Virus record (IMG/VR): IMGVR_UViG_3300022911_000001
Location: 1 to 44,276 of that record
Length of the DNA: 44,276 nucleotides
DNA from: a virus
Direction: 5' to 3' (one strand)
The translations under genes and the position numbers were made by a program. Shown piece after piece: positions 6,565 to 44,276 of this stretch. Within the stretch, counting starts at the first letter, position 1. Each line of letters starts with the position of its first letter. The notes beneath the pieces are model-generated. The model made no database searches. It saw only the letters and a program-made list of their open reading frames with translations, and was not told where the DNA came from.

Positions 6565-6576
6565 TGTTGCACCTCC

Positions 6577-6589: not shown

Positions 6590-6591
6590 CC

Positions 6592-8215: not shown

Positions 8216-8217
8216 GT

Positions 8218-8612: not shown

Positions 8613-8815
8613 AGCGTGCTCCTGTTAGGTTTGCAGTTCACGACAAGATCACTTAGCAGCTTGTCTCTACGTTCACCGCTCTCTTTCACACTCCACAGCA
8701 CTAATGATGTAACTAGCAGGAATGCAATATTAACAATGACAAGTGCAAGTGCGAGCGGCCTATCTTTCAAGGCACTCGCCACATCACTAACAGCTTTGCC
8801 AGTTGCTTGTATCAC
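8609..8815 (-). CDS. Single-transmembrane small protein, lysis cassette candidate
   Basis: This 68-residue protein starts at GTG (8815), 2 nt after the upstream stop, and overlaps the next gene by ATGA. It has a soluble helical N-terminus (residues 1-21), one membrane helix (LALALVIVNIAFLLVTSLVLW, ~22-43) and a charged tail with KESGERRDKLLSDLVVNC. It could be a holin, an antiholin or a very short inner-membrane spanin partner for the lipoprotein two genes downstream; nothing in the sequence decides among them. The ribosome site is weak, so expression probably relies on coupling. Confidence 0.55.
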   Translation of the reverse strand: MIQATGKAVSDVASALKDRPLALALVIVNIAFLLVTSLVLWSVKESGERRDKLLSDLVVNCKPNRSTL

Positions 8816-8817
8816 TA

Positions 8818-9204: not shown

Positions 9205-9218
9205 CGTCAAACCTTTCT

Positions 9219-12904: not shown

Positions 12905-13012
12905 ATCATTGCCCACTCTTTGCAAGTGGCAATATAGCCAGCACGCTTCTTACTTGTGTCGCTGCGCGAAGCAGAACTCTTATAGCATGGTTCTTCAATG
13001 TTGTCAATGGGG

Positions 13013-13025
13013 TATACACTGTATA
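13013..13025. promoter_or_regulatory. 13-bp palindrome TATACACTGTATA
   Basis: In the ~120-nt gap between the nozzle protein and the tail fibre. Here the palindrome extends one base each side (GTATAC...GTATAC). Confidence 0.75.
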
Positions 13026-13027
13026 CG

Positions 13028-16176: not shown

Positions 16177-16195
16177 CACCCACTCCATATAGTGC

Positions 16196-16229
16196 GACCT
16201 GCATGGCGGTCTTGTACACCATGCAGGTC
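16196..16229. other. Perfect 11-bp hairpin in the head-tail intergenic gap
   Basis: GACCTGCATGG (16196-16206) pairs perfectly with CCATGCAGGTC (16219-16229) across a 12-nt loop. It lies in the 60-70 nt gap between the decoration-type protein gene and the adaptor gene. No T-run follows on the minus strand, so a simple terminator is unlikely. An mRNA processing or stabilising hairpin that separates strongly expressed capsid genes from tail genes is plausible. Confidence 0.7.
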
Positions 16230-16257
16230 TTACACCTCGCTACTTGGTGGCAGATAG

Positions 16258-16896
16258 TTATGCAACAACGTGCGCGCTACCGTGCAAGTTGCTACGATCT
16301 ACGACACAGGTGAAGCGGTACGACTTAGTACCATCAGGTGCAGCAGCCGGTGTGTATGCACCACGCGGATCACCACTCGTAAGCGTCTGTGCTACTACAC
16401 CAGCGAGCAACGCGCCCGCAGCCGCAGTAACATCGTTCGTCAGTTCACCATACAGTGCAGTGTGCAGCACCTTGTACGGCACACCGAGAATAGCACCGAC
16501 ACCGATGCTAATGGTGGCCGCAGCAGGCACGCTCACATACGCTACATCTTTGAACATCTTCTTGCCGACTACAGGACCAGCAGCAAGCGCGATGTTCTCT
16601 TTCATAGCCTGACCGAGATAGTCATAACCCACAATTACACCGGCACCAGTGCCACCTGAGACTGTGACGTTACGACCATAACGACCCATAACAGCGTCGG
16701 TCTGCACTACTGTTGGTGCAACGTTACCAGCAGCAGCAAGAACGACAGCGTTCGCGAGTGCGTTGGCAGCCGCTGCAATAGGTGCAGGGATGTCAACGGT
16801 AGTATGTCCATCGACACTCACATCAGCGGCATACATCATGTCCGCGACACGATGACTGACACGACGAGTGCTAGGAACAGCGACTTGTACGGCCAT
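16258..16896 (-). CDS. Probable head decoration/minor capsid protein
   Basis: This 212-residue protein is Ala/Val/Gly-rich (NALANAVVLAAAGNVAP; VSVPAAATISIGVGAILGVPY) with few charges, as is common in capsid decoration proteins or head fibres. It starts MAVQVAVPSTRRVSHRV after a GAGG site. It lies two genes after the major capsid protein and before the tail genes. Codons are more C-ending than in the tail genes, which suggests high expression. There is no motif that fixes the role; a head-completion protein is possible. Confidence 0.6.
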   Translation of the reverse strand: MAVQVAVPSTRRVSHRVADMMYAADVSVDGHTTVDIPAPIAAAANALANAVVLAAAGNVAPTVVQTDAVMGRYGRNVTVSGGTGAGVIVGYDYLGQAMKENIALAAGPVVGKKMFKDVAYVSVPAAATISIGVGAILGVPYKVLHTALYGELTNDVTAAAGALLAGVVAQTLTSGDPRGAYTPAAAPDGTKSYRFTCVVDRSNLHGSAHVVA

Positions 16897-16898
16897 AG

Positions 16899-17351
16899 TT
16901 ATTCATCCTCTTTGTCTACTTGCTCTTTAGTCCCTAGCAGCTTGTCTACGATGTTAGGATCACCTTCAACAAGCCGCGTGAGAATATCGAGCGTTTGTTT
17001 CTGCTTGTTCGTGAGTGCAGCATTCGCATGTTGCATTCCTACTGGTGTATCGTCACCACCTTCCATGAAAAGCGGTACGAGGTTCTTATCAAGCCGCAAC
17101 CTCACAAGGTCTTCGTGAGTGACGAATACACTATCGCCACGTAGGGTACGCACCATGTACCCATCCACTTCAACATCAGTAGGCACAATGCGAAAACCGA
17201 TTTCATCTTTCACAGTGCGATTGACTACAGTCTTACGCTTTATCGGTTCGACAGTGAATGCAGGCACAGCCTTCTGCTTCTGCTCCATGCTAAACGCTTG
17301 TTGCGTCTGCTTGTTCTCGAAGCTGACTACTGGTGTTGGCTCACTAGACAT
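16899..17351 (-). CDS. Hypothetical protein downstream of the major capsid protein
   Basis: This 150-residue, charged protein (many Lys, Glu, Val) starts MSSEPTPVVSFENKQTQQAF after a strong AAGGAG site. The middle has FRIVPTDVEVDGYMVRTLRG. The acidic tail ends KLLGTKEQVDKEDE. It lies 10 nt after the capsid gene and 2 nt before the next. Its position suggests a head-associated or head-assembly factor; I recognise no domain. Confidence 0.6.
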   Translation of the reverse strand: MSSEPTPVVSFENKQTQQAFSMEQKQKAVPAFTVEPIKRKTVVNRTVKDEIGFRIVPTDVEVDGYMVRTLRGDSVFVTHEDLVRLRLDKNLVPLFMEGGDDTPVGMQHANAALTNKQKQTLDILTRLVEGDPNIVDKLLGTKEQVDKEDE

Positions 17352-17361
17352 TGTAACTCCT

Positions 17362-18312
17362 TTAGTCGTTCACAACTGCGTGGGTGCGATATTGCTTCCA
17401 CGTTGCGAACTGACACTGCGTGATGACACGCTGTCCGTAGCCGTCAATCGTCCACGGTGCAGTGAGGTCAACATTCTTCATGTTGTTGTCACCGAGGATG
17501 TGAAGGCGCAGGTAGGTGTCGTTGAGGAAGTAGGCACGATCAACCGGGCAGCTTTCATCATAGATGATCGGTACGCCGTTGTGCGACACACCATCAAAGC
17601 CGAGGTCCATCATACGCTTGCCGCTGCTTGTGTTCGTGAGCGGAATAGTGAGCTTGCTACGAACGGCAGCACGATACAGGCGATAGTGATTACGTCCAGC
17701 AATGATAACTTTAGGACGTTCCGTACCTTGTTTGAGGTCAAGCAGCACATCATCGTAGGCTTCCTCGATATTCGTCGCGTTAAGAGTACCCGCGAAGTCG
17801 TACGAGGAACTACGCCACTGCACTTCTGTAGCACGATCAACACCAGCGAGCGATCCAACAGTAGGATCGTCAGGAACAAGTAGTGCAAGTCCATTCGGAT
17901 CATTGCCACCACCGACACCGTAGAGGTACGCTGAGAACTTCTCCTTGATTGAGAGTTCAAGCGCCTCAAGTTTACCTTGGAGTAGCTTAACAGCAGCTTG
18001 CTCACCCTTGTTCTCGTCTTCTTCTTGATTGCTGATGATAACGGTACCAGCAATACGGCTCCAACGATATTCAAGCTTGATGAACTCTTGCGTCTGCACT
18101 ACTGGCAAGCTGTCGTAGTAGCTATAGCTGCCCACTGTAGGATTGCGACCAGTCAACAATGGGTTCGTGATGTTGTAACCGCTCGACTCATTCTCGATGC
18201 GATCACGTGCGAAGCACCACGCCATAAGCGCGTTGCTCTGCATAGCTGCGACGATGAGCTTCTTACGTGAACGCTCAATAGTCGTAGCCAGTACGTTCTG
18301 GAGTACGGGCAT
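17362..18312 (-). CDS. Major capsid protein
   Basis: This protein has 316 residues. It follows terminase, portal and scaffold genes in the invariant packaging order and has the composition of an HK97-fold capsid protein. An N-terminal helix region (NVLATTIERSRKKLIVAAM), the E-loop region with SYSYYDSLPVV and FIKLEYRWSRIAGTVIISNQEEDENKG, a long spine helix (AVKLLQGKLEALELSIKEKFSAYLYG), and a P-domain GTERPKVIIAGRNHYRLYRAAV followed by GVSHNGVPIIYDESCPVDRAYFLND are all visible. The GVPIIYD...YFLN segment is typical of capsid proteins of this fold. AGGA precedes ATG. Codon use is C-rich, consistent with abundant expression. Confidence 0.85.
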   Translation of the reverse strand: MPVLQNVLATTIERSRKKLIVAAMQSNALMAWCFARDRIENESSGYNITNPLLTGRNPTVGSYSYYDSLPVVQTQEFIKLEYRWSRIAGTVIISNQEEDENKGEQAAVKLLQGKLEALELSIKEKFSAYLYGVGGGNDPNGLALLVPDDPTVGSLAGVDRATEVQWRSSSYDFAGTLNATNIEEAYDDVLLDLKQGTERPKVIIAGRNHYRLYRAAVRSKLTIPLTNTSSGKRMMDLGFDGVSHNGVPIIYDESCPVDRAYFLNDTYLRLHILGDNNMKNVDLTAPWTIDGYGQRVITQCQFATWKQYRTHAVVND

Positions 18313-18323
18313 TGTTCAATGTC

Positions 18324-19382
18324 CTATTTATGGTTGAGTTCTGTGAACACTGCCGCTGCGATGTCTTTCCAAGGAGCGTTCGAGCGGAAGTCTCCACGCG
18401 AGTTAGTGTTATTGTGTGTAGCAATGCCGCCGTTAGGTGGTACACCACGCATATCGCCCGGTGTTGACTGTCTACGTCCACCATTACCGTTGCCGTTGCG
18501 CTGGCGCTGCATAGCAGCCTCAATCTGTGGCTTCAGTGGTGACGTGAAGTCAAATCCTCTACGTTCGGCCCAGCTACGCAACTCATAGTACGCTTTCTCA
18601 GGCGATAAGCCGTGTTGCTGTACTAAGTTGCTGATTTCTACCCCATGCGTTTCAGAATGAGGGTGTTGTTGTACAAACTGCTCCATCTGCACTTGAGCGC
18701 GTTCCTCAATCTGCGCCTGTTGCTGACGTGCTTGCGTCTGCTTCTCAAGAGGCCCCAAACGGCGGTCTAGCTCGTTGGTAATAACACGTGCATTGATCTG
18801 TGGTACAGCATCCGTGCCAAATAGCTGTTCCATAGTGACGCCAGTAGCAAGTACACGTGCTACAACATCACGCACTGCCATGATCGGATCTCGTTCCGCC
18901 ATAGCACGTAGTTGCAGAGCCTCTTGTGCCATCTGCGGCGATAAGTTGTTCTGCTTCATCACTTGATCTAGAGCTTGGTAGTGTTGAATGTGCTGCTGCA
19001 TAGCGCGCATCTGGCGCTGTGACTGATTTGCAGCGTACTGCGCACGATTGAGGTTGTATGCTAGCTGTTTCTCACGCCGAGTTGACGCAACGACGTTACC
19101 ATTGCGGTCAAGTAGCTCACCTTTTGGTCCCTTGCGCGGTTTGTCGGTGAAAAGCTGATCGTCTTTCGCTTTCTGTTGCGGTGTATGACGGTCACTACCT
19201 GTCTCTGGTCGCTGTTCACCACCTTCACCACCGTCTTGCGCACCTTCTACCCCTTGTGGGTGACTAAGTGGTAGCTCTTGCTGTTGTTCTCCACCTTCAT
19301 CACCGCTATCTTGCTGTGGTGCTTCGTCTTTAATACCAAAGCTGTCACCAACCGCAGACATCAAGTCTTTTTCTTCTGGCAT
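18324..19382 (-). CDS. Capsid scaffold protein
   Basis: This 352-residue, highly hydrophilic protein has an acidic Gln/Gly/Glu-rich N-terminal third (DEGGEQQQELPLSHPQG) and a central long helical Gln/Arg/Met-rich region (NLNRAQYAANQSQRQMRAMQ). A Gly/Asn/Arg-rich linker and a basic/polar C-terminus (SNAPWKDIAAAVFTELNHK) follow. Placement between portal and capsid genes plus this composition is the usual signature of an internal scaffold that directs procapsid assembly through its C-terminus. A very good ribosome site, AAAGGAGG, precedes ATG. Confidence 0.8.
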   Translation of the reverse strand: MPEEKDLMSAVGDSFGIKDEAPQQDSGDEGGEQQQELPLSHPQGVEGAQDGGEGGEQRPETGSDRHTPQQKAKDDQLFTDKPRKGPKGELLDRNGNVVASTRREKQLAYNLNRAQYAANQSQRQMRAMQQHIQHYQALDQVMKQNNLSPQMAQEALQLRAMAERDPIMAVRDVVARVLATGVTMEQLFGTDAVPQINARVITNELDRRLGPLEKQTQARQQQAQIEERAQVQMEQFVQQHPHSETHGVEISNLVQQHGLSPEKAYYELRSWAERRGFDFTSPLKPQIEAAMQRQRNGNGNGGRRQSTPGDMRGVPPNGGIATHNNTNSRGDFRSNAPWKDIAAAVFTELNHK

Positions 19383-19393
19383 TGTAGCCTCCT

Positions 19394-19498
19394 TTAGAGT
19401 TCGTTCACCGCTATACAGCTATACCAAAAGCGATGCCACGCCTTGCCGTAGTACTTTGGCAAGTCAGGGTAACGTTTTAGTACATCATTCCAACTCAT
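19394..19498 (-). CDS. Tiny 34-residue ORF between portal and scaffold
   Basis: The reading is MSWNDVLKRYPDLPKYYGKA and continues to end WYSCIAVNEL. Its ATG overlaps the portal stop (TGATG) and its stop lies immediately before the scaffold's ribosome site, so it exactly fills the gap, as real small phage genes do. It is rich in Trp, Tyr and Lys. Function is unknown. Confidence 0.5.
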   Translation of the reverse strand: MSWNDVLKRYPDLPKYYGKAWHRFWYSCIAVNEL

Positions 19499-21822
19499 CA
19501 CGCCGCAGCACCATGCTGCATCTGTTGTATCATCTGCGTAGCAATATCAGCTACACTCTTGCCACGTGCTAGCTGCACACCGAGTGATTGTTTGATCTCC
19601 GGTGGCAAACCGTCAATAAGACCAGCTACTTGTTGCACAATTTCAGCTATTCCGTCAACATCTAGACCACCAGCACCACCTCCACCTCCTGGTGCCTGTT
19701 GTCCACCTTGTCCTTGTGCACGTGCCTTCATCGCTTCAACGACCATCTGCTGTTTACGGTCGGCACCTTGTTGTGCACCCTGTTGTGCTAGCTGTTCTGA
19801 CTGTTGTTCTTCAGGTCCGGGAGCATTGGCTTCTTTCATAATGCCTTTGTAGATAAGCTCCCAGTCTTCCTGACTTACAACTACGTTGTCGAACGCTTGC
19901 GAGAGTACTTTGAGAGCAACAACTGCTGCGATTGGTGTTGCACGCGTAAACTGACCGATGATCTGAGAAATCTGAAGCGCCTGCTCCTTCTTCGCTCGCG
20001 ATGTCGGCTTAAGTGTACTACCGCCCACGACACGAGGCGTGAATGTGCTGCGTATCTTCTGCGCATCCATCTTCTCCCAATCAGCAGCCATCTTAGCGCC
20101 TAGTAGTACACCTACTTCCTCCTTATCCATGAATTGCATACACATCTGCGCAACAAGCCATAATACAGTGCCCACGCTATCTTCGATAGCATCCATCTTC
20201 TCATCTGCACGTGTCTGTATCTGCGACTCATAGCTCTCGATAGCTTTGTTCGTGGTATTGGTTTTGTACTCCACTCCGCGCTGAACAGACGCAACTCCTG
20301 ATAAGCGATCAATGGCTTCAAGTACTGGCTTCTTGTCGAAGAACTTAATTGCTTCAGCGCTAGGAGGTAGGAGGGGTCCGAGTACATCACCAATCTTCTT
20401 TCCCTCTGGTAGATCAACGCCGAGTGTGTTGGTGTCTAGTGTACCAGCTATAAGGCTCTCCAACATGGAGCCATCTTTGATGCTGTTCTTGTCAAAGACT
20501 ACTTTACCAGCCGCAAACTTTCGTACCTTGGCCCATTCGTTATTAATGATGTTGATGTCGTCTTGTTGGTCAAGGTAGTAAGTAACTTCGCCCTTGGCGT
20601 ACATGGTAATAGGGTCAGTATGAAACTCCATCGGCACGACTGTAAAGAACTGGTCGAGAGAGTATGGATCATCCCACACCCACAGAGGATAGCACCAGTC
20701 ATTGCAGTTGTAGAGTTCAACGCGTCTTGTAACTTTGTCCCAAACATAGACCACCTTCGTCATCTGTGCAGCAAGGAACGAGCGTTGATCTGCGTATCCG
20801 TACTTGGTGTGCTCACTTGTTGAATAACTGAATAGCTGGAAGTTGTCCGTCTGCCCTCTATCACCTTGGTCTGGAGACACACCAGCTTTGATGACGTTAG
20901 TCGGAGAGAATACAGACTCCCACTCATCAGTGCCGGGTTTCTTACGTCCGTATCTGGCACGAAGTAGTGAAGTATACATGAGGTCTTCAATCATCACCCA
21001 ATTGCACGGACCACTAAGGTCGAGGTCTGTAGCTGTAGTATCAACGATGATCTGATCTGGTCTACGCACCTTCACCCACGGACCTGCTGGTGTGAGCATG
21101 TCAATGGTTTCTTCAAGTGCAAGTAGCTTGCCTTCGATCTCTTTAATGTCCTTCTGACTTTCAGCTTTCTCTAGCTCTAGAGATAGGCGTTGTACTTCTT
21201 CTAGCGCAGCTTCACTACTCTGCTCACGTAGTGTGTAGCCTACTTCAAACCAACCGATGTTGCAGAGTGATGTGCTGACGATGTTGCGTTTGACTTTGCG
21301 CTTGAGATTAAGTCCCGGCGTGGTCTTCTTTGCGGCGAGGACATTAACAAGTTTCTCAACAACGCGTGCTTGCTTTTGATCTTCGTCATCCTCACAGGTA
21401 AATTCCGCGTCAGGGTTCTTTGTAAACAGCAGAGGCACAAGTGCACTGACGTTTGCGAATACAATGTTTTCAGTGCTGTCAAATGAGCCGTTGAGCGACT
21501 TACCACCCGATGCGTTATCTTCGCCTGTCCGTGATGTGTTGTTACGAGTATGGTCATGTCTATAGTACCTATACGCTTCGTTCCAAGCATCTGTGCTCTT
21601 AGACATAGCACTCTTGCTCTGATCGTAGCGACTACGCCACAATGGGCCACGGTGTTTACTAACTGGTATCTTACTCTCACCTAACATGCGGTAGATAGGT
21701 TGATCGTCTATCATCTCGCTTTCAGGTTTCATAATACCTTCAAAGCTAGTGAACTCACTGCTATCAGCAGCAGGTTCTGCTTTGCGGTTGTATTCCTCAC
21801 CAGCGTCATATTCACTAGCCAT
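19498..21822 (-). CDS. Portal protein
   Basis: This protein has 774 residues and overlaps the end of the large terminase gene by 8 nt, the standard terminase-portal order. Acidic residues and NTSRTGEDNASGG fill the first ~110. The clip/wing region includes WFEVGYTLREQ and a coiled-coil at ~203-240 (ALEEVQRLSLELEKAESQ). DQIIVDTTATDLDLSGPCNWVMIEDL, VVYVWDKVTRRVELYNCNDW and YYLDQQDDINIINNEWAKVRKFA (stem/crown helices) fit podovirus portals of the P22/N4-like size class. The C-terminus is Gln/Gly-rich (AQQGAQQGADRKQQM) with a GGGGGAGG run, probably a flexible barrel extension. It forms the dodecameric DNA channel at the capsid vertex. Confidence 0.85.
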   Translation of the reverse strand: MASEYDAGEEYNRKAEPAADSSEFTSFEGIMKPESEMIDDQPIYRMLGESKIPVSKHRGPLWRSRYDQSKSAMSKSTDAWNEAYRYYRHDHTRNNTSRTGEDNASGGKSLNGSFDSTENIVFANVSALVPLLFTKNPDAEFTCEDDEDQKQARVVEKLVNVLAAKKTTPGLNLKRKVKRNIVSTSLCNIGWFEVGYTLREQSSEAALEEVQRLSLELEKAESQKDIKEIEGKLLALEETIDMLTPAGPWVKVRRPDQIIVDTTATDLDLSGPCNWVMIEDLMYTSLLRARYGRKKPGTDEWESVFSPTNVIKAGVSPDQGDRGQTDNFQLFSYSTSEHTKYGYADQRSFLAAQMTKVVYVWDKVTRRVELYNCNDWCYPLWVWDDPYSLDQFFTVVPMEFHTDPITMYAKGEVTYYLDQQDDINIINNEWAKVRKFAAGKVVFDKNSIKDGSMLESLIAGTLDTNTLGVDLPEGKKIGDVLGPLLPPSAEAIKFFDKKPVLEAIDRLSGVASVQRGVEYKTNTTNKAIESYESQIQTRADEKMDAIEDSVGTVLWLVAQMCMQFMDKEEVGVLLGAKMAADWEKMDAQKIRSTFTPRVVGGSTLKPTSRAKKEQALQISQIIGQFTRATPIAAVVALKVLSQAFDNVVVSQEDWELIYKGIMKEANAPGPEEQQSEQLAQQGAQQGADRKQQMVVEAMKARAQGQGGQQAPGGGGGAGGLDVDGIAEIVQQVAGLIDGLPPEIKQSLGVQLARGKSVADIATQMIQQMQHGAAA

Positions 21823-28107: not shown

Positions 28108-28248
28108 ATGGGTTATGTTGTTGTTATCATCACGAGTGATGGAAGTGAGAAACGCATATCGTATATTGAGAGCCAAAAGCCTACTGCTGAAAACTTTGTA
28201 AACCTGTTGAAGCGTCATGGTGTTACTGCGTGGGTAGCACGTCCATAG
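28108..28248 (+). CDS. Small early protein (46 residues)
   Basis: It starts MGYVVVIITSDGSEKRISYI after AAGGAGATGTAGCT, an excellent ribosome site directly downstream of a palindrome (28078-28090). The pattern (VVVIITSDGSE..ISYIE....T..NFVNLLKRHGVTAWVA) suggests a small beta-beta-alpha-beta fold, unusually regular for a chance frame. It is the first gene after P2. Function is unknown. Confidence 0.7.
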   Translation: MGYVVVIITSDGSEKRISYIESQKPTAENFVNLLKRHGVTAWVARP

Positions 28249-28252
28249 TACC

Positions 28253-28265
28253 TATACAACGTATA
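28253..28265. promoter_or_regulatory. 13-bp palindrome TATACAACGTATA
   Basis: Followed by ACCAAAGGAGATGTAGCT and the DUF932 start; nearly the same leader cassette as at 28078. Confidence 0.85.
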
Positions 28266-28283
28266 ACCAAAGGAGATGTAGCT

Positions 28284-29123
28284 ATGTCACAACAACTCTG
28301 GTTGCCAATGCAGACTACTGCTGAACTCAATGCACAAGAGACTGCTAAGGTGTTTGAAGACATCAATGCAGTTAGAGAACGAGCACCCGCACTGTTTGCT
28401 ACAACTGCACATCCACGTATGAGTGAGCGTTATTCATTTACTAATACATATGACATCGTGCTCGCGATGCATAATCGTGGTTATCGTGTGAATAGTATCA
28501 GTGGTGGTACTAGTACATATAAGAAACTCATGGTGCGTATGCGTAATACTAACTACGATGCAGCTAATGGTGTATCATTCGCACCCGAGTTAGTACTACT
28601 AGATAGCCATGATGGCACATCACGCTTGAAGCTGTTCCTCGGTGCAATCAAGTTCGCATGTATGAATGGCATCATTGCTGGTGATATACTCTATGCACGC
28701 AGCTATCTACACTTTGCTAAAGACCTAATGGCACAAATACGCCTCGACATGGATGACATCAACACGCACACAGTTAAGCTTATACAACGTATAGCTGCGA
28801 TGCGTGAGCACAAGGTGACATATGCTGAGCGCATTCTACTAGCTGATACAGCAGTCAAACAGCGCTATGGTGAGAACAAAGACGGCACCTTTGTAGCTGA
28901 TGTACGTCAGTCATTCCTCTCAACACGTAGACCTGAAGATGAGAGCAACGACCTATTCACTGCAATGAACGTAGTGCAAGAGAACGCACTGCGTGGTGGT
29001 GGCTACTATACTAACAACAACCGTGTGCAGCACATCCGATCTATCACTCAAGTAGATCGCAATGTGAACATCAATCAGTCATTGTGGCAGTGTGCTGAAG
29101 ACATCATGAAGAAGGCTGCATAA
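28284..29123 (+). CDS. DUF932-family phage protein
   Basis: This protein has 279 residues from MSQQLWLPMQTT, after AAAGGAGATGTAGCT; an upstream in-frame start at 28230 lacks a ribosome site. The core PELVLLDSHDGTSRLKLFLG, then FACMNGIIAG, and the C-terminal ITQVDRNVNINQSLWQCAEDI match the DUF932 (phage/plasmid-like) family, whose members follow the pattern NSHDGTS...R..CMNGL..G and end in a replicator-like NxxLW helix. The molecular function of the family is not established; members occur near replication or recombination genes of phages and plasmids. A palindrome copy sits inside the gene at 28781. Confidence 0.82.
   Translation: MSQQLWLPMQTTAELNAQETAKVFEDINAVRERAPALFATTAHPRMSERYSFTNTYDIVLAMHNRGYRVNSISGGTSTYKKLMVRMRNTNYDAANGVSFAPELVLLDSHDGTSRLKLFLGAIKFACMNGIIAGDILYARSYLHFAKDLMAQIRLDMDDINTHTVKLIQRIAAMREHKVTYAERILLADTAVKQRYGENKDGTFVADVRQSFLSTRRPEDESNDLFTAMNVVQENALRGGGYYTNNNRVQHIRSITQVDRNVNINQSLWQCAEDIMKKAA
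28781..28793. promoter_or_regulatory. 13-bp palindrome TATACAACGTATA
   Basis: Inside the DUF932 gene. Confidence 0.6.
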
Positions 29124-32379: not shown

Positions 32380-32537
32380 TGCCGCATGAGTACGCACTGC
32401 ATATGATGTGGCTGTACACTAGGTACTACTTCGCAGCAGTACTCATATACGGCTTAGTCTACATGCTACCAATCACACTCACACTCTATGGAGTTAAACA
32501 GTGGTTGAGAAGAAGGAGATGCCGCAGCACGTTGTAG
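32379..32537 (+). CDS. Small membrane protein with basic tail (52 residues)
   Basis: The reading is MPHEYALHMMWLYTRYYFAA, then a membrane-length hydrophobic stretch (VLIYGLVYMLPITLTLYGV), then a very basic end (QWLRRRRCRSTL). Its ATG overlaps the upstream stop and its 3' end overlaps the HNH gene by 37 nt. A small inner-membrane protein is plausible. It is too short to assign a role. Confidence 0.42.
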   Translation: MPHEYALHMMWLYTRYYFAAVLIYGLVYMLPITLTLYGVKQWLRRRRCRSTL

Positions 32538-33193
32538 ATCAACGAGCAGGTGGTACTAATCCTAAGCTGCGCCCGCGTCGTGAGAAGTCGGAGTTCTACG
32601 ATGTATTCCGACGCATCAACATGCATGATGGTGATAAAGTAGCATGTTGGGAGTGGAAGGGTGCACATGGCAAAGGCACACGTGGTGAATACAGACCACG
32701 CGTAGTGATAGGTCAGAAGGACTACTACGTACACCGCATAGTGTATCAGCTCTATACAGGGTATAACCTAGAACCTAAAGATGTGATCAGACATCAATGC
32801 GACAATCATTGGTGCTGCAACCCACATCACATGTTGATAGGCACTCAAGCTGACAACGTGCGTGATATGCTAGAGCGTGAACGCGTGGGCATGAAGTTGT
32901 TCCACGTCAAGCGCATCATGCAGATGCTGGAGATGGGATGCTCTGCTGTATTCGTAGCTGAGAAGATGAAGCAAGGCTATGACATGCAGCTAGATGTGTC
33001 TACTATACGCAAGATCCGTATGCGTACTATCTACAGACATGTAGAGTGGCCGTGGGGTGATGAGTACAAGGCCACACGTAGGAAGCGACTAGATGATGTG
33101 AAGGCTAGTAAACTTGCATGTGTTTCTGAATGTGATATAATACTAGATGCTACCAGATCAAAAGGAGATAAGCATGGCAACAACGAAGATTAA
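32501..33193 (+). CDS. HNH endonuclease
   Basis: This protein has 230 residues and starts at GTG (32501) with GGAG 7 nt upstream. The HNH core is VIRHQCDNHWCCNPHHMLIGT (~95-115): H98, C100, C105/C106, N107 and H109/H110, with ADNVRDM following, as in the phage HNH homing-nuclease family. Upstream, CWEWKGAHGKGTRGEYRPRV and YYVHRIVYQL form the usual beta-hairpin and scaffold. The C-terminal ~100 residues are a helical, basic region that probably contacts DNA (FVAEKMKQGYDMQLDVSTIRKIRM has helix-turn-helix character). The 3' end of the gene carries promoter P3 and overlaps the next gene's start. It may be a free-standing homing nuclease or a nicking factor in recombination. Confidence 0.85.
   Translation: MVEKKEMPQHVVDQRAGGTNPKLRPRREKSEFYDVFRRINMHDGDKVACWEWKGAHGKGTRGEYRPRVVIGQKDYYVHRIVYQLYTGYNLEPKDVIRHQCDNHWCCNPHHMLIGTQADNVRDMLERERVGMKLFHVKRIMQMLEMGCSAVFVAEKMKQGYDMQLDVSTIRKIRMRTIYRHVEWPWGDEYKATRRKRLDDVKASKLACVSECDIILDATRSKGDKHGNNED
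32753..32765. promoter_or_regulatory. 13-bp palindrome TATACAGGGTATA
   Basis: Inside the HNH gene. Confidence 0.55.
33114..33141 (+). promoter_or_regulatory. Promoter P3 inside the HNH gene
   Basis: TTGCAT (33114-33119), a 16-nt spacer ending TGTGA, and TATAAT (33136-33141). It lies within the last 80 nt of the HNH coding sequence and ~30 nt before the next gene's ribosome site. Confidence 0.78.
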
Positions 33194-34882: not shown

Positions 34883-35965
34883 GTGTTAATCAAACCAACA
34901 ACCGACATGTCGCTGTCATGGATAGACTACAGTACGATGAGTGCAGTTAACACTTGTCCGAGGTGGGGTATCATCAATAGCTGGCACGGCAAGAAGCTGC
35001 CTAGTGGTAATGAACGCGTGTTACCATTAGAGGCTGGCCGCGCAATGCATGATGTGTTCGCGTGTTGCCGCTTCTTCGACTTGCTAACTGACTTCAGTAA
35101 GAAAGAGCCAATCAACTATACAAAGTATAAAGCGATTAACTCGTACGCAGAGAGGCTGTTCAACAATGCTAGTTTTCCAGATCGCTGGCAACAAGCGCTC
35201 GCTTACTTTAATAGCACGGAAGATGCTGAGACACGATGTATGCAAATGTGTCTCAATCTCTTGGAAACATCAGGTTATCACGATGATCCGCGAGACAACA
35301 GACGAACGCAGTCTAACCTTGAAAGTGCGGCTATATCCTACGTACAACGTTATCCGCTTGGTCGCTTCATACCAATATGTAACGACGACGCAAGCATCAT
35401 CGGCATAGAAGTACCATTCGATGTCACACTGCATGATTACAGCGATAAGCCTCTTGTTCGGTTCGTTGGTAGGGTCGATGCTGTGTGCCTTGATACTCTC
35501 AGACCTAATGACACCATCCCTGAAGTACATGAGAACAAAACTGGTAGCCGCATTGATACTGTCTGGAGCAGCAGCTTTGACACTTCTAATCAAGTCACTG
35601 GATACTGTATCGCGATGTCAACTATCTTAGACATGCCTATACGCAATGTCATCATGTGGGGACTACAGATACCAGTGCCTAAGTCTAGCAGCTATAGCGA
35701 TGGCATCATGCGCTACCCTACTACACGCAACGAGGCTAGCTTCTACGAGTGGCACAAGTGGGTAATGCATACATTCGGAACCATACTACAACATGAAGAC
35801 GAACCCACCAACGCCCCAATGTACACTCACTCTTGTAATCGCTATTTTCGTAGTTGCGCTTTCATCCCTCTATGTTGCGAAGATGAAGAACAACGCAAGC
35901 ACATATTCGACAACGAGATGATTGTGCAACGCTGGTCACCGCTAGCAGAGACGCTTGATCCTTAG
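34883..35965 (+). CDS. RecB/Cas4-like PD-(D/E)XK nuclease with Fe-S cysteines
   Basis: This protein has 360 residues and starts at GTG with AGAGG upstream. Catalytic motifs of the RecB-type nuclease domain are present: H56 (EAGRAMHDVF), D199 (FVGRVDAV), E217-x-K219 (VHENKTGSR) and motif IV Q237...Y241 (QVTGYCIAM). One Cys near the N-terminus (C25 in NTCPRWG) and a C-terminal cluster (C318, C325, C331/C332 in HSCNRYFRSCAFIPLCC) match the four-cysteine iron-sulphur arrangement of Cas4 and AddB-type nucleases. The protein should degrade or process DNA ends. Placed beside a Sak4-like ATPase and an ssDNA-binding protein, it forms a phage recombination module. Confidence 0.85.
   Translation: MLIKPTTDMSLSWIDYSTMSAVNTCPRWGIINSWHGKKLPSGNERVLPLEAGRAMHDVFACCRFFDLLTDFSKKEPINYTKYKAINSYAERLFNNASFPDRWQQALAYFNSTEDAETRCMQMCLNLLETSGYHDDPRDNRRTQSNLESAAISYVQRYPLGRFIPICNDDASIIGIEVPFDVTLHDYSDKPLVRFVGRVDAVCLDTLRPNDTIPEVHENKTGSRIDTVWSSSFDTSNQVTGYCIAMSTILDMPIRNVIMWGLQIPVPKSSSYSDGIMRYPTTRNEASFYEWHKWVMHTFGTILQHEDEPTNAPMYTHSCNRYFRSCAFIPLCCEDEEQRKHIFDNEMIVQRWSPLAETLDP
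35117..35129. promoter_or_regulatory. 13-bp palindrome TATACAAAGTATA
   Basis: Inside the RecB-like nuclease gene. Confidence 0.55.
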
Positions 35966-36063: not shown

Positions 36064-36840
36064 ATGGAATTGAAGATAGAGAAACCTACTGACATGCTAT
36101 CACGTATGTCAATGATACTATGGGGCGATGCTGGTTGTGGTAAGACTACACTAGCTGCAACAGCACCGGGTCGTAAGTTGTTCGTTGCATTAGATCCCGA
36201 TGGTGACATGAGCATTCGCAACATACCGGGTTGGGCACGCATCAATCTGACGAGCGAGAAGTCTGTAGACATTGTGAAAGAGGGAATGAAGCCTGACCCT
36301 TATACATTGTATAACATGTTGAATGACTTCGACACAGTGATTGTAGATAGCCTCACGAAGTTCTCTGAACATGCACTACGTCACGCTGTCAACGTTGCGC
36401 CTAAGTCCTCAATCGAAAGCCCCGGTCTTAACGGCTACGGTATGCGTAACATCTACGTTGGTGCATTCGTATCTAACATGATCCGCATCACTGGTATGTT
36501 AAACAAGCACATCATCTTCATCACGCATGAGAAAGACGCAGACCGCAACAGTGATGGTGGTGTGATCGGTGTGAGCATGATGCTAGGTGGTCAACTACCT
36601 AACATGACGAGCAAGGACATCTCTGAAGTGTGGAACATGCGTGATCAAGGTGGCAAACGCTATATCTCTATCCGCCCTGAACGCTTACGTGCTCCCATGA
36701 AGTCGCGAATGTTTGACATGTCAGGCTCTACCTCGTTCGAGTGGAAGTACAACGCTAACAAGAACGAAGGTAACACTATAGCTGACTGGTGGGACACATT
36801 CACCAAAGGCGGCCACGTTAAGCTCCCAATCCCGAAATAG
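36064..36840 (+). CDS. Sak4-like RecA-fold ATPase (single-strand annealing/recombination)
   Basis: This 258-residue protein has Walker A WGDAGCGKTTLA at ~25-36 and Walker B TVIVDSLT at ~91-98. ALDPDGDM sits where the signature region of AAA_24/Sak4 proteins lies, followed by IIFITHEKDA (sensor-like). GVSMMLGGQLPNMTSKDISEVWNM and PERLRAPMKSRMFDM fit phage AAA_24 family members. These proteins act with ssDNA-binding proteins in phage recombination and replication restart. The ribosome site is GGGAGA before ATG. Its neighbours are a RecB-like nuclease upstream and an SSB downstream. Confidence 0.85.
   Translation: MELKIEKPTDMLSRMSMILWGDAGCGKTTLAATAPGRKLFVALDPDGDMSIRNIPGWARINLTSEKSVDIVKEGMKPDPYTLYNMLNDFDTVIVDSLTKFSEHALRHAVNVAPKSSIESPGLNGYGMRNIYVGAFVSNMIRITGMLNKHIIFITHEKDADRNSDGGVIGVSMMLGGQLPNMTSKDISEVWNMRDQGGKRYISIRPERLRAPMKSRMFDMSGSTSFEWKYNANKNEGNTIADWWDTFTKGGHVKLPIPK
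36301..36313. promoter_or_regulatory. 13-bp palindrome TATACATTGTATA
   Basis: Inside the Sak4-like ATPase gene, between Walker A and B. Confidence 0.55.
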
Positions 36841-37858: not shown

Positions 37859-39199
37859 ATGTTGCTAGATGCGGAACAGCAAGCCGCTGTCAACTCTTGC
37901 GTCGATACAGCTAAACGCCTAGTCAGTGTAACAGGTGAAGCCGGTACTGGTAAGACTACAATCATCAGACAAACGTGCGACCTGCTACAAGAGAAGAACA
38001 TCAGCTTCGCAATCGCCGCTCCTACTGGTAAAGCAGCGCGCCGCATTAGAGAAGCTACAGGCTACCCAGCTACAACCATTCACAAGCTGCTTGAGTTTAA
38101 TCGTCCTGACATGGATGAGGAAACTGGTGAAGCTACATCTGTGAGTGGCCCTGCACGTACACGCAGCAACCCACTCGACCAATACGTTATCATCGTCGAT
38201 GAGTACGCGATGGTATCTACTGCACTACACCGCGACCTAGTTGCAGCTATCCCTAGTGCCGGCTGCTTGCGTACGTTCGGTGATGTTAGACAACTCCCAC
38301 CTATTGAGAACGGTGATCTCGCTGATCCAACATCGCCGTTCAGCAAGTGCCTCGCTATGCCTAACACCTTCGCACTCAACAACATCTACAGACAGGCTGA
38401 AGGCAATGGCATCATCGAGGTTGCTCGACGTATCACACGTGGTCAGTTCTTCACCAGCAATACAGACGTAAGCGTGCAGCTAGGCGATGCAGTGCTGCAT
38501 ACATTGTATGGCTCACTTACTAACAGCGACACCGATTGGCGTGACATCAACAACCAGATCATATCACCAGCACGTAAGAGTGACATCGGTACTATCAGGT
38601 TGAACAACATACTACAAGCACGCTTCAACCCTGACATGCCGGGTAAGATCGAACTACCTCGTAACAAGTGGGAGGTTAAGAACAAGGTCTACGTGTCGAT
38701 CGGTGACAAGGTTGTATGCAACACTAACAGCTATGACCTGCGTGACTACGGTGAACGCTTTAGTGAGTACAACAACAGGGGTGTCGGCTTGATGGGTAGC
38801 TTCATCCCATGCCCTGAGACAAAGCAGATGCTCAATGGTGAGGTGGGTAGAGTAGTAGACATCGACGCACTAGGTGTACTTGAGATTGACTTCGGTGATC
38901 GCGTCGTTGAGCTACCACCAACTGTTGAGGAATACAGTGCACGTCATAGTAGGCACTTCAACTACGACCCACGTAAGGTTATCGAGCTAGCCTATGCTCT
39001 CACCACTCACAAGTGTCAGGGTAGTCAGTACGACAACGTGTGCTACATCATGGCATCATGTGCGTTCTACAACTTAAGCCGTCCTAACTTCTACACAGGA
39101 GTAACACGCGCAGTCAAACACGCAACGATCATAAGCGACCAACGCAGCCTAGCTACATCGCTCAAGTCAATGGGTTGGAAAAGGAAGCCTAAGAAATGA
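37859..39199 (+). CDS. SF1B helicase (Dda/RecD2-like)
   Basis: This 446-residue ATP-driven 5'-3' DNA helicase has motif I GEAGTGKTT (26-34), motif Ia AAPTGKAARR, Walker B VIIVDEYAMV (110-119), motif III FGDVRQLPPI (140-149), and C-terminal VIELAYALTTHKCQGSQYDNV and FYTGVTRAVKHATI (motifs V-VI). SKCLAMPNTFALNNIYRQAEG is also typical of the RecD2/Dda group. It lacks an N-terminal RecD extension. Its stop overlaps the polymerase start (ATGA), so both are co-translated. It is the only helicase recognised in the genome, so it probably serves replication or recombination-dependent replication. Confidence 0.88.
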   Translation: MLLDAEQQAAVNSCVDTAKRLVSVTGEAGTGKTTIIRQTCDLLQEKNISFAIAAPTGKAARRIREATGYPATTIHKLLEFNRPDMDEETGEATSVSGPARTRSNPLDQYVIIVDEYAMVSTALHRDLVAAIPSAGCLRTFGDVRQLPPIENGDLADPTSPFSKCLAMPNTFALNNIYRQAEGNGIIEVARRITRGQFFTSNTDVSVQLGDAVLHTLYGSLTNSDTDWRDINNQIISPARKSDIGTIRLNNILQARFNPDMPGKIELPRNKWEVKNKVYVSIGDKVVCNTNSYDLRDYGERFSEYNNRGVGLMGSFIPCPETKQMLNGEVGRVVDIDALGVLEIDFGDRVVELPPTVEEYSARHSRHFNYDPRKVIELAYALTTHKCQGSQYDNVCYIMASCAFYNLSRPNFYTGVTRAVKHATIISDQRSLATSLKSMGWKRKPKK

Positions 39200-41721
39200 A
39201 CATGACAGAACTGCGTGACAAGTTCACGCTACAAGCACAGACTGCTGGTATGGTGGTAGAGTGTGCGATGGGAGGTATCACACTTGCCACACTCGCAGTG
39301 ATAGCTGAAGCTCCCGGACGTAACGAGGTCGCTCAAGGTGTGCCACTGATAGGTGGTGCGGGCAACATATTGTGGAAGGCCATACGCACATACTGTCCAG
39401 AGGTGAAACGCCATGAGTGTTACGTCACTAACGTAGTCAAGCGCCAAGTCACGTTTGACGTAAGCGATAGCGCAAACAGAAAGGCCGTTGGTAAGCATGA
39501 GTTGACAAGCTGGCAAGAGCTACTGTTGTGGGAGCTATCACTACTACCCAACCTCAAGCATGTACTATTGCTGGGCAACTACGCAGTCGAAGCGGTGCTA
39601 GGTAAGAGAGGCATAACCAATTGGCGCGGCAGTGTAATTGATTGCGAGATACTTGGCAAGCCTGTCACTGCGATATGCACATACAACCCTGCATACTGTG
39701 CACGTGATCCTATGGCGCACGTCATCTTCGACATGGACATAGGTGATAAACTCCGTCCTGTTATACTAGGCAACTACAAACCACATGCAGTCACCACACA
39801 CATCAACCCCACCTACGTACAAGCAGTTGACTATATTCGTATGTGTGAAGCCTCACGTAATCCTGTCGCCAGTGACATCGAAGTCATCAGTAATGAGACA
39901 GCTTGCGTCGGCCTTGCTCCTACAGCACACGAGGCCATGTGCATCGCATTCCGTAACGAGCAAGACAACGTATACAGTGTACAAGAGGAAAGCTCCATAC
40001 GCTACCATCTGCAACAGCTATACGCATCGCCTACTGCAAAGATGGTGTGGCAGAATGGAGGCTTCGACATGGCATGGCTGTGGTTTAAGGATCGCATACG
40101 TTGCAAGCCAGCATACAGCGACACGCTGCTTGGTCATCATGTGCTATATCCCACAATGCCGCACGACCTTGGCTTCATTGTCAAGCAGTACACAATGCAT
40201 CCGTACTATAAGAATGAGAAGGACGACTGGCGACATACAGGCGGTGTTGACAATTTCTGGATATACAACTGTAAAGACTGCGCTCTCACACTTGCAGCGA
40301 ATGCGCAGATCGTGAGTGAGCTACGCGACCAGAAGCTAGACAGGTTCTACTTTGAACACGTCATGCGACTGCAAGCGCATCTAGTGCTGATGACTGTAGG
40401 TGGTGTGCTCAATGACATGGAGCTACGTGAGCACATGCTAGATCAGAATGTAGAAGGTAACTTGTATGCTGACTTACAACGTAAGCTCGCTGCGTTCTAT
40501 GAAGCAGCACGCACAGCTACAGGTGATCCATTCTACACACCTAACCCTAACTCACCGAAGCAGATGGCAGAGTTGTACTTCAGTAAGTTGAAGCTAGTAG
40601 GTAGAGGCGTGAGTACTGACGCTACCAATCGCGAGTTGATGCGTAAGCACCCACGCACACCACCTGCTGCGCGAGCAGTCCTTGATGCTGTAGATGCGTA
40701 CATTGAAGACGACAAGTTCTACAGCGTGTATGCTTCAGCTCGCCCTGACGGGGATAGTAGGATGCGTTGCGACTACAGACAAACGGGGGTACGCAACGCG
40801 CCGGGTAGATTGAGTAGTGCGCAAACGTTGTGGGGCAGTGGCGGTAATCTGCAAAACATTCCCGACCGTGCGAAAGCGATGTTCATTGCTGATCCTGACT
40901 GCTGCTTTATATACATCGACGGCAGTCAAGCGGAGGCTCGCGTCGTCGGTTGGCGCTACAACATCGACACGTGGATTGCTCAGTTTGAGCGTGCGCGTAT
41001 CGACGGCTCCTACGACTGCCACCGCGCTCTTGCCGCTGACATGTTCGATGTACCGTACGACGAGGTTCCCACCTTCGACCGCTACCCATTGGACGACATC
41101 GCCGCTAAGCGCGACGGCATCGAGTACAACGCGGAGCTTGCTGGCAAGCCAACCATTCGCTTCGTTGCTAAAAGGTGTCGTCATGGTCTTAACTACCGTA
41201 TGATGCCTGACAGGCTTGCGCTTACAACTGGCTTATCACTAAGCACAGCAAGCGAGGCGTTTGTCAAGTACCATAAGCTAACTCCCGAACTCAAGAAAGG
41301 TTGGGAGCAAGACCTAAAAAGAGTACGCGAGGATCGTGCAATCTATAACGCATACGGCAGGCGCTACGTGCAACTCATACCAGCTACAGATGAAAGCACA
41401 GAGTCCATCGTCGCGTTCTACCCACAGTCAACTATCGGAGATCACATCTGCCGGGTAGTGTACAAGGCGCACGACGACCCCGCTTGGCCGAAGGGTAAAG
41501 CGCGTGTTGCACTTAACACACATGACGGACTGATCGGTATAGCGAGGCGTGATGTTGCTAAGCAGGCGCTCCGCATACTTGCTAAGCACGCAGAAGCACC
41601 CATCCTGATAGGAGGTAAGCAACTCATAATCCCTGCCGAATGCGGTATAAGTGTACCTGACGCCAATGGTGTCCATCGGTGGTCAACGATCAAGAAGATC
41701 AAGCGCGCAGAGATTATGTGA
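39196..41721 (+). CDS. polA-like: UDG-like domain / 3'-5' exonuclease / family A DNA polymerase fusion
   Basis: This protein has 841 residues. Residues ~25-195 form a UDG family 4/5-like domain: EAPGRNE at 38-44, GVPLIGGAGNIL at 48-59, and TYNPAYCARDP at 162-172. In most relatives the latter is a His-Pro motif; here Asn164 replaces His. The exonuclease acidic set is D227/E229, D291 (NGGFDMAW) and Y357...D361 (IYNCKDC). In the polymerase, motif A is D575-GSQAEAR. Motif B is R655-x3-K659-x3-H663-G-LN-Y667, with His at the position of E. coli F762 / T7 Y526. Motif C is H776-D777-G778. SPO1-type phage polymerases also carry N-terminal UDG-like domains. It replicates the genome. Confidence 0.9.
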   Translation: MNMTELRDKFTLQAQTAGMVVECAMGGITLATLAVIAEAPGRNEVAQGVPLIGGAGNILWKAIRTYCPEVKRHECYVTNVVKRQVTFDVSDSANRKAVGKHELTSWQELLLWELSLLPNLKHVLLLGNYAVEAVLGKRGITNWRGSVIDCEILGKPVTAICTYNPAYCARDPMAHVIFDMDIGDKLRPVILGNYKPHAVTTHINPTYVQAVDYIRMCEASRNPVASDIEVISNETACVGLAPTAHEAMCIAFRNEQDNVYSVQEESSIRYHLQQLYASPTAKMVWQNGGFDMAWLWFKDRIRCKPAYSDTLLGHHVLYPTMPHDLGFIVKQYTMHPYYKNEKDDWRHTGGVDNFWIYNCKDCALTLAANAQIVSELRDQKLDRFYFEHVMRLQAHLVLMTVGGVLNDMELREHMLDQNVEGNLYADLQRKLAAFYEAARTATGDPFYTPNPNSPKQMAELYFSKLKLVGRGVSTDATNRELMRKHPRTPPAARAVLDAVDAYIEDDKFYSVYASARPDGDSRMRCDYRQTGVRNAPGRLSSAQTLWGSGGNLQNIPDRAKAMFIADPDCCFIYIDGSQAEARVVGWRYNIDTWIAQFERARIDGSYDCHRALAADMFDVPYDEVPTFDRYPLDDIAAKRDGIEYNAELAGKPTIRFVAKRCRHGLNYRMMPDRLALTTGLSLSTASEAFVKYHKLTPELKKGWEQDLKRVREDRAIYNAYGRRYVQLIPATDESTESIVAFYPQSTIGDHICRVVYKAHDDPAWPKGKARVALNTHDGLIGIARRDVAKQALRILAKHAEAPILIGGKQLIIPAECGISVPDANGVHRWSTIKKIKRAEIM

Positions 41722-41735: not shown

Positions 41736-44276
41736 CTACGGGACCGGCTGCTGTTGTTCACCAACAGGAGCAGTAGCCGGTCTACCGCTATTCTCACGCA
41801 TGATCTTGTCAAGCGTAGACATGTTGATCTGTCTACCACGCAACAGTGGCTTCAGAGCTTGACCATACTTATCAGCTATCACCTGTTCAGCATACAGCGT
41901 TGCAAGCCTTTGCTGTTCTAGGTTAGCCTGCTGCAACTTCACGTACTTGTTCTTCTCTTGAGTGCGTTGTTCGAGTGGCATGTTATACTGCGCATCAATG
42001 CCGCGGACAGCCGCACGTATCTTTGCTTGCTGTGTTTTCAGCTTGCCTAGATCACCGCTCGGATACTGCCACGCTGCAATGTCGTTAGCAATCTGCGTAA
42101 GCACCGCACTGGTCATTCCCTTCTCAGGTATACCACCAGCCTGCACAGCAATCTGTCTACGCTCCATTGCAGCTTTGCCTAACTCATTACGCATACCTAC
42201 GATAGAGCTGATGTGCACGTTGTTCTGCGATGTCATCTGCCATGTAGGTGTCATCGCACTGTAGCGTTCTTTGTTCTGCCATATTAGCGGTATCTCTGGC
42301 ATCCTAGATACAGTGCGATCAAACACTTCACCAGTAGCACGGCGCAACCCTTCACCGTAGTTAGCACTCTCTCTAGGTGTTGGCAGTGGTGAAGGCCCTG
42401 TGCCTTTGTTGTAGTTGGCAGAGTGCAACATCACATCAGTAGCCATCGCTATGTGTGTACCCATAGCACCGAACAAAGCGGCCATCATCAACGATGTGCT
42501 ATTGCTTATCTCACCTAAGTTAGACACGCTCTCCGCATTAGGACCAGCACGAAACAGTGAGCCGCTATCACGTATCCAATTGCCGCCACGTGTTTCAGAT
42601 GTAGATGGATCAAGCCGCTTGCCACTCTGTGCAAGTAGTATCTGCGCTATAGGTGGCATAGCTGGTGTGAAGCTATCAATAAACACCTTGCCTATGTCAC
42701 TGCTCAGTGGCTTGATAGTAGCACTACTAGGAATAGCACCCATCATCTGGAAGAATGCAGCAGTGCCAGCAACCATGCCTGCGATGTCAGGAGGTATGCG
42801 TATCTTGTAGTACAAGTCCTCACTGAATGGCAGTGTCTTACCTTGGAAGTGTGCTAGCGCTAGCTTAGGTGCAGGCAAGTATGCGTAGCGATACCTGTCA
42901 TACTCAGGTGTCTGCTCCCACAGCATCTTGCGGCTCTCATCATTCCAGTGCGTCATAAAGTAGTATGACTGTGCTATAGCACCCATACCAATCATCATGC
43001 GCGGTAGTGTAGTAAGTGCGGTATCCCTGCCAAACATGTTTCGTATCAGGTGATATGCACCTAACTTAGTCTGCGTCATGTAAGGCACTATACGCTCTAC
43101 ATCTTGCATTATCTTACTGCCCGGTACGAGCGACATGTCACCGGCGATGTTGCGTGTCTCATCAAGTAGTCGCTCTATCCGCTCAGGCGGTATGTTGCCA
43201 CCGAATTGACGTGACAACATTGCGTGGTTCTGCGTGTAGTACTGCGTCTTGTCAGCCATATGGAAGCTGTCAAGTATGTCTGTATACAACTGCCACACAT
43301 GCCTCATAGGTGCAGGCACATGCTCCTTCATCGCGCTGAATGAGTTGCGTACAACTGGTATGTTGTCGATGCTATGCGTACCATGCCCAGCACCACCTCT
43401 ACGCACAGCTACAGCTTCAGCATTGTCAGCCCACAATGCAGCGCGTGATGCCGCAGCGATCACAGCGTTGTACGCACGTGGACCTAGCACAGTCTGCAAC
43501 GCCTGAAATGGTGCTACCTGTTGTGCAAGTGCTCGCGCTATAGGACGCGTCAGGTAGTGTGTCTGTAGTTGAATGAGGTTCCTAACTGCGTAGTACGGTA
43601 TACCAACTATCACTGCTGATATGTCAGGCACTACAGCGTTGATACCTCTAGCTACACGCTCTGGTAAGAACTGATGCAGTCTATGTGATATAGGTCCGAA
43701 GACACGATCATTCCTATGTGTCAGCATCGCAATCGCTGTATTGTAGTAAGCGTTGATAGGTGCGAATGCCCAGTTGCCCGGACCTGTTGTCCAGAACTTG
43801 TTGTTGTTAGTGACAACTGTGACAGCTTTCATCAAGCCACTAAGTTGCACAGGCTCCATACGTGCAGCACGTGCTACTTCCGCATCACCGAACTCCCATA
43901 CACGCGCGCGACCATTCTCCCATTCGATGCCAATGTTAGGGCTATCTTCTAGGTGTCTAAACTGCTGCGACTTTAGTTGTGCAGGTGTGAACCAGTAACG
44001 GCCCGGCCCACTTTGTACAGCACGTATACGCCCATTGGTAACTAGGTGCGTAGGGTTGCCAACAGCATCACGTGTTAGCAGTCTGAACAATTGATTGCGT
44101 GCTGTCGTGTGTGCAGCTTCACGCAGCGTCTTATCGGTGTATTGTTTCGATGCACTCAGCGGGTGCAGCGGTTGTGTGATGCGTGTCTCTGGTGCGTTAG
44201 GTGTAGTAGGTGGTTGTGGTATCTCTCTGTCGAACGAGCGTAGTGGACCTTCACGTAGTGCGCCCTTAGATGTACC
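41736..44276 (-). CDS. Giant internal virion protein, C-terminal part (continues from 1-1909)
   Basis: In-frame continuation of the 1440-residue protein that begins at 1909; the frame is open to the window end. Around 700-900 of the full protein it is basic and hydrophobic (VARGINAVVPDISAVIVGIPY). The C-terminal half includes TLPRMMIGMGAIAQSYYFMT, then YYKIRIPPDIAGMVAGTAAF, then VFIDSFTPAMPPIAQILLAQ. That order (a helical membrane-like stretch, an IPP/IP motif, then P..P domain) resembles the large polyvalent-protein C-terminal domain (LPD38-like) seen in phage internal/ejection proteins; I hold this loosely. It ends with a Gln-rich helical tail. Its stop (41736) is 14 bp from the polymerase stop. 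Confidence 0.82.
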   Translation of the reverse strand, partial: GTSKGALREGPLRSFDREIPQPPTTPNAPETRITQPLHPLSASKQYTDKTLREAAHTTARNQLFRLLTRDAVGNPTHLVTNGRIRAVQSGPGRYWFTPAQLKSQQFRHLEDSPNIGIEWENGRARVWEFGDAEVARAARMEPVQLSGLMKAVTVVTNNNKFWTTGPGNWAFAPINAYYNTAIAMLTHRNDRVFGPISHRLHQFLPERVARGINAVVPDISAVIVGIPYYAVRNLIQLQTHYLTRPIARALAQQVAPFQALQTVLGPRAYNAVIAAASRAALWADNAEAVAVRRGGAGHGTHSIDNIPVVRNSFSAMKEHVPAPMRHVWQLYTDILDSFHMADKTQYYTQNHAMLSRQFGGNIPPERIERLLDETRNIAGDMSLVPGSKIMQDVERIVPYMTQTKLGAYHLIRNMFGRDTALTTLPRMMIGMGAIAQSYYFMTHWNDESRKMLWEQTPEYDRYRYAYLPAPKLALAHFQGKTLPFSEDLYYKIRIPPDIAGMVAGTAAFFQMMGAIPSSATIKPLSSDIGKVFIDSFTPAMPPIAQILLAQSGKRLDPSTSETRGGNWIRDSGSLFRAGPNAESVSNLGEISNSTSLMMAALFGAMGTHIAMATDVMLHSANYNKGTGPSPLPTPRESANYGEGLRRATGEVFDRTVSRMPEIPLIWQNKERYSAMTPTWQMTSQNNVHISSIVGMRNELGKAAMERRQIAVQAGGIPEKGMTSAVLTQIANDIAAWQYPSGDLGKLKTQQAKIRAAVRGIDAQYNMPLEQRTQEKNKYVKLQQANLEQQRLATLYAEQVIADKYGQALKPLLRGRQINMSTLDKIMRENSGRPATAPVGEQQQPVP
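41740..41782. other. Imperfect hairpin at the convergence point
   Basis: GACCGGCT pairs with AGCCGGTC, and an inner CTGTTG with CAACAG, within the 3' end of the leftward gene and just past the polymerase stop. It lacks a clear U-tract in either direction. It may slow polymerases where the two blocks meet. Confidence 0.45.
44150..44276. repeat. Direct terminal repeat, right copy
   Basis: Identical to 1-127. It carries the internal virion gene in frame through the join. Confidence 0.93.

Follow-up and report, generated by a model that had tools for sequence, protein, structure and literature searches.

A class of phage family A DNA polymerases with histidine at the Phe762 position

The stretch of DNA analysed here (the window; a viral record 44,276 bases long) encodes a family A DNA polymerase (PolA) with histidine, His663, at the position equivalent to F762 of E. 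coli and Y526 of T7, and every class relative with motif B covered has the same residue (71 distinct segments, which clustering at 90% reduces to 45; the class was gathered with His762 queries, and these counts are not a frequency of His762). Comparison of these sequences establishes a fourth natural state of viral PolA position 762, confined to a single clade or almost so; with His in the window as in 45/45 class members, the polymerase fits none of the published Phe762, Tyr762 or Leu762 viral classes. Position 762 is among the most studied single residues of any polymerase: it switches dideoxy use, the basis of Sanger sequencing enzymes (PMC3997047), changing the equivalent residue in T7 alters infection (PMC13228545), and surveys classify viral PolAs by Phe, Tyr or Leu at this site. 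The His762 class was filtered out of a major survey because Keown et al. restricted entry to sequences whose residue 762 is F, L or Y (PMC9069017), and Nasko et al. tabulate the same three residues, with a sum of 2,045 against the 2,095 peptides of their text, leaving 50. No mention of natural His762, nor of F762H or Y526H, was found in the literature searched, which mostly excluded subscription papers. The class is well supported and has been overlooked; altered nucleotide selectivity, and any link to lifestyle, are inferences.

The window probably represents a genome of some 44.15 kb, either circularly closed (k-mer overlap) or terminally redundant, since its two ends carry an identical 127-base stretch (1–127 and 44150–44276), and its P22-like portal (Pfam), terminase large subunit and major head protein genes identify a podovirus-like phage. 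The polymerase ORF lies downstream of the Sak4-like ATPase and exonuclease genes, and its start overlaps the stop of the helicase gene (ATGA). The features on which the analysis rests are as follows.

34883–35965 (+), exonuclease of the same replication block (PHROG 1218)
36064–36840 (+), Sak4-like ATPase of the same replication block (PF13479; PHROG 124)
37859–39199 (+), SF1 RecD/Dda-like helicase (PF13604/PF13538; PHROG 4412/325)
39196–41721 (+), 841-aa family A DNA polymerase (Pfam PF03167, PF01612 and PF00476 over cut-off; PHROG 17 DNA polymerase, E 9e-65)
39874–40278 (+), ExoI D227-I-E229, ExoII N287-x3-D291 and ExoIII Y357-x3-D361 (invariant in a 35-sequence alignment)
40918–40935 (+), motif A D575-GSQA-E580, with D705 and the steric gate E710 retained (alignment)
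41158–41199 (+), O-helix / motif B, R655 to R668 (translation; helix 654–667 in the model)
41182–41184 (+), His663 codon (CAT), equivalent to E. coli F762 / T7 Y526 (several alignments)
41191–41193 (+), Asn666, equivalent to E. coli I765; Asn in 41 and His in 4 of 45 His762 sequences (alignment)
41413–41415 (+), Ala740, equivalent to E. coli N845; all 45 His762 sequences have Ala here, and 16 of 18 others have Asn (alignment)
41521–41529 (+), motif C H776-D777-G778, HDG (translation, alignment)

Elsewhere in the window, a large late protein that carries a CBM_5_12 carbohydrate-binding module (10265–12925, −) is probably a tail or receptor-binding protein, a DUF932 protein (PHROG 12094) is encoded in the early region (28230–29123, +), and an HNH endonuclease (32501–33193, +) is possibly a free-standing homing endonuclease. 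Positions 1–20000 of the window had no megablast match in the phage collection.

The polymerase comprises a UDG-like domain (residues about 32–172), a 3'-5' exonuclease (about 211–374) and the polymerase domain (about 424–820). D575 aligns with Asp705 of motif A and H776-D777 with His-Asp882 of motif C, as in 45/45 members of the class, and R655, K659 and Y667 match the PolA O-helix pattern R754-x3-K758-x7-Y766. The proofreading residues are also present (ExoI D227/E229, ExoII D291, ExoIII Y357/D361), and the enzyme is predicted to be active as a polymerase and to proofread. An AlphaFold2 model of the protein without DNA and dNTP (mean pLDDT 91, pTM 0.86; built from 35 related sequences) superposed on Bst, Klenow, Taq Pol I and pol theta with Z about 29–33 (VIA-align, residues about 198–833), and has the right-hand fold, matching Bst 4dsj with Z 32.6 at 2.7 A across 545 residues. 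The top Foldseek match, the G20c polymerase (7r0k), was considered as a solved His762 structure and excluded, as it has Phe at the site (KVVNFALIYGG). Within the UDG-like domain (39289–39711), EAPG and TNVVK are retained, but in the window clade NP (N164) stands in place of HP, a motif that most MW202489-clade sequences keep. We take an active family 4 uracil-DNA glycosylase to need the catalytic-motif His of HP besides the GEAPG motif. Having NP at this motif, the domain of the window clade, which was aligned to UdgX, is probably inactive as a family 4 enzyme.

The original prediction read motif B as R655-x3-K659-x3-H663-GLN-Y667-R668 and set His663 at the F762/Y526 position. The translation bears out the first reading, giving R655-FVA-K659-RCR-H663-GLN-Y667-R668, and the second is agreed on by an HMM alignment, by MAFFT in three modes and by a profile alignment to Klenow ('RRSAKAINFGLIYG' against 'ryiaKrcrHGlnYr', E 1.6e-57). 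The range to which the motif had been assigned, 41149–41190 (+), encodes PTIRFVAKRCRHGL (residues 652–665 of the ORF); Y667 and R668 are encoded at 41194–41199, just past its end. R655, K659, H663 and Y667 all fall within the single modelled helix, a placement based on sequence and secondary structure rather than on side-chain distances. That His is rare agrees with the Phe/Tyr/Leu set published for position 762 (PMC9069017, PMC6302109). Absence from such surveys is the sole support for blaming the His on faulty sequencing or assembly, or on misalignment, an explanation of negligible probability that is refuted by the relatives: the same His occurs in every close relative with the region covered and in distant ones, independent metagenomes and isolates agree, two synonymous codons are used (CAT in 52 and CAC in 6 motif matches from the fetched loci), and several alignment methods concur. 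The observation is real and extends from one enzyme to a class.

Relatives were gathered by six scans of viral_contigs and by tblastn of the phage collection, at identities from 93% to about 20%, and His762 persists down to about 20–25% identity. It is common to independent metagenomes and isolate genomes, and the cultured phages that carry it include Tiera, Kuura, Mel-JY34, Aeromonas P5 and Pseudomonas Neko. Motif B varies across the class.

Window clade: KRCRHGLNYRM
MW202489 clade: KSFAHGTNYLG
Microcystis phage Mel-JY34: KAFVHGTNYGG
Polaromonas phage Tiera and Pseudomonas phage Neko: KKIVHGTNYMM
Aeromonas phage P5: KRTNHGANYNM
Caulobacter phage Kuura: KRIGHGSNYYG
Desulfofustis phage: KAGNHSLNYDF
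Vibrio phage ABTNL-3: KAGGHATNYRT

Reference sequences carried Phe762 (E. coli, SPO1, T5-like SE24, Gordonia Cleo and others), Tyr762 (T7, MW202554) or Leu762 (Listeria LP-032, Streptococcus SP-QS1, Bacillus 268TH002). A scan of genome_contigs, whose patterns were specific and which is hence weak evidence of absence, found no His762 prophage and returned only a Phe762 Parcubacteria PolA. In several phages of the class (L045, L068, L072–L074, L079, L114–L118), a break upstream of motif B divides the polymerase gene into two ORFs, and the intervening sequence could be an intron or a homing-endonuclease insertion.

When the 45 non-redundant His762 sequences were compared with 18 others, the Asn/His and Ala replacements at 765 and 845, neither of them noted in the original prediction, were joined by Pro at the M848 position (42/45). 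The catalytic residues were largely unchanged, with E. coli D705, R668, Y766, Q849, H881 and D882 identical in 45/45 sequences, K758 retained in 44/45 and R754 in 37/45. At the E710 position, Glu (n = 27) and Asp (n = 18) both occur; the change of this steric-gate residue to Asp falls in the MW202489 and Mel-JY34 clades (L038, L039, L045, L054–L070, L073, L079) and may affect ribonucleotide exclusion. Two further peculiarities of the original prediction were narrowed by the comparison. Arg668 is indeed present at the Gly767 site, but is clade-specific, position 767 being variable in the class (R 19, L 14, M 4, G 3, D 3). Motif C does read HDG, but this is ordinary and within the normal range, because the residue at 883 is Ser in 27, Gly in 9, Ala in 7 and Glu in 2 sequences of the class; in the phage Tt72 polymerase, Ser at this third position is dispensable, S616A retaining 76% activity (PMC9324360).

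The loss of N845 matters because its KlenTaq equivalent, N750, together with Q754 and E615, touches the nascent pair in its minor groove (PMC7155079), and because N845A reduces Klenow selectivity and fidelity (PMC3347538, PMC7708058). We regard it as probable that the window enzyme, a member of the His762 PolA class, is the replicative polymerase of a podovirus-like phage of ~44 kb and a working replicase with altered sugar discrimination. The imidazole would take over from the Phe/Tyr ring in stacking on the sugar of the incoming dNTP, and its N-H may hydrogen-bond the beta-phosphate in the manner of the Tyr526 hydroxyl of T7; with N845 lost and a polar residue at 765, the nascent base pair would be checked by rearranged contacts. 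The expected result is altered sugar discrimination (dideoxy or ribo) nearer to that of Tyr enzymes than of Phe or Leu enzymes. This Tyr-like direction is our leading guess because an imidazole could both pack on the ribose and present its N-H to the phosphate; in T7, the Tyr526 hydroxyl and the 3'-OH of the sugar both extend to the beta-phosphate, and swapping Phe for Tyr is by itself enough to abolish dideoxy discrimination (PMC3997047). The literature searched yielded no biochemistry on any His762 enzyme.

Alternatively, His762 could be neutral and fixed by lineage, its ring doing the job of Phe with ordinary selectivity. The imidazole ring is planar; with a single origin or only a few on the tree, fixation could be a founder effect; and position 767 and motif C drift too in the class. 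This is a fair rival but the less likely reading, as the His is strictly conserved to 20–25% identity while its helix neighbours vary, and N845, although Asn in nearly all of the other sequences, is lost simultaneously in every member. The maximum-likelihood tree placed 45/45 His sequences in one 46-tip clade with weak support (52), the sole extra tip being MW202554, a Tyr sequence on a long branch. Once the trait columns were dropped, two changes were required to account for the His label, and a single origin was not rejected (p-AU 0.286); a single origin is, from these sequences, likely rather than proved. The co-variation of 762, 765 and 845 should not be tallied as many independent events, and may be one inherited event rather than repeated coupling. 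The second polymerase ORF of MW202554 (L047) has Tyr762 (KRIRYAFGYRAG) and Ser at 845 on its long branch inside the His762 clade, and is possibly an intermediate or a long-branch artefact.

Replication genes were surveyed across 24 genomes carrying His762, including a fragment of 31 kb. A Sak4-like ATPase match was present in 24/24, and in 19/24 the AAA_30 domain of a RecD/Dda-like helicase scored over cut-off; both belong to P-loop families, and the weakest matches may therefore be cross-matches; DnaB and SNF2 helicases were each over cut-off in 0/24, and PrimPol (PF09250) was searched for and not found. Keown et al. found gp4 with most Tyr762, SNF2 with most Leu762, and SNF2 or DnaB with many Phe762 contigs (PMC9069017). 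Against this published pattern, set beside the class without a matched control, a module of Sak4 and RecD/Dda with neither DnaB nor SNF2 over cut-off makes the His762 class look different from the Phe, Tyr and Leu classes. Tentatively, and at somewhat less than even probability, His762, Asn765 and Ala845 would form a coupled, rearranged pocket that defines a fourth functional PolA class, with sugar and base-pair selectivity unlike that of Phe, Tyr and Leu enzymes and with its own Sak4 and RecD/Dda module.

Neither a tyrosine integrase nor a serine recombinase was found in the 24 genomes, yet plaques are turbid for Kuura, which has a putative repressor (PMC9959647), and for phage Shea (genus Jamesmcgillvirus; 98.57% ANI to PaP2), which persists without integrating (PMC13348215); the lytic/lysogenic rule drawn from Phe, Tyr and Leu is therefore not extendable to His on present evidence. 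Tiera forms clear plaques, with no temperate genes seen (PMC9959647). Neko, the congener of Shea and PaP2, carries His762, from which the residue of Shea is predicted, and the PaP2 polymerase is known here solely as a 42.5% tblastn match to that of Tiera. Culturable phages that combine a fixed fourth state at 762 with the loss of another checkpoint residue offer a natural test of family A nucleotide selection and of the proposed link of residue 762 to lifestyle.

Among known enzymes, DpoZ of vibriophage phiVC8, a 2-aminoadenine polymerase, resembles the window enzyme as a phage PolA with unusual motif B residues. A pocket suited to a non-standard genomic base such as 2-aminoadenine is very improbable for the His762 class: loss of the minor-groove contact N845 could suit a minor-groove amino group, and MazG-like or phosphohydrolase genes lie near the polymerase in some relatives, but no modification genes were present among the window proteins scanned, and no PurZ (PF00709) was over cut-off in the 24 His762 genomes, with no match at all in the window and one weak below-cut-off match in another record. 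DpoZ has insertions, and Tyr766 is Phe in both DpoZ clades (PMC8599892), but Tyr in the window (Y667) and in 45/45 sequences. The 2-aminoadenine reading was rejected on the retained Tyr766 and the failure to find PurZ over cut-off.

The E. coli enzyme shares with the window enzyme the fold, D705, D882, R668, K758, Y766, Q849, H881 and the exonuclease motifs, and differs at F762 (His in the window), N845 (Ala), I765 (Asn), G767 (Arg) and E883 (Gly); it has a 5' nuclease where the window has the UDG-like N-terminal domain. The polymerase of Bacillus phage SPO1 is likewise a phage PolA, but has F762, N845 and Gln at the G767 position; family 4 UDGs are commonly annotated as SPO1 DNA polymerase-related proteins. 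T7 gp5 is also a replicative phage family A polymerase, whose position 526 governs dideoxy use, but it has Tyr at 762 and Asn at 845, and the His762 genomes have no DnaB-type helicase over cut-off. The Tiera polymerase has 18% identity to the window enzyme, and Tiera-type rows of the alignment have no recognisable UDG-like motifs; it and the polymerase of Neko (Jamesmcgillvirus) carry the same His762/N765/A845 signature in cultured phages.
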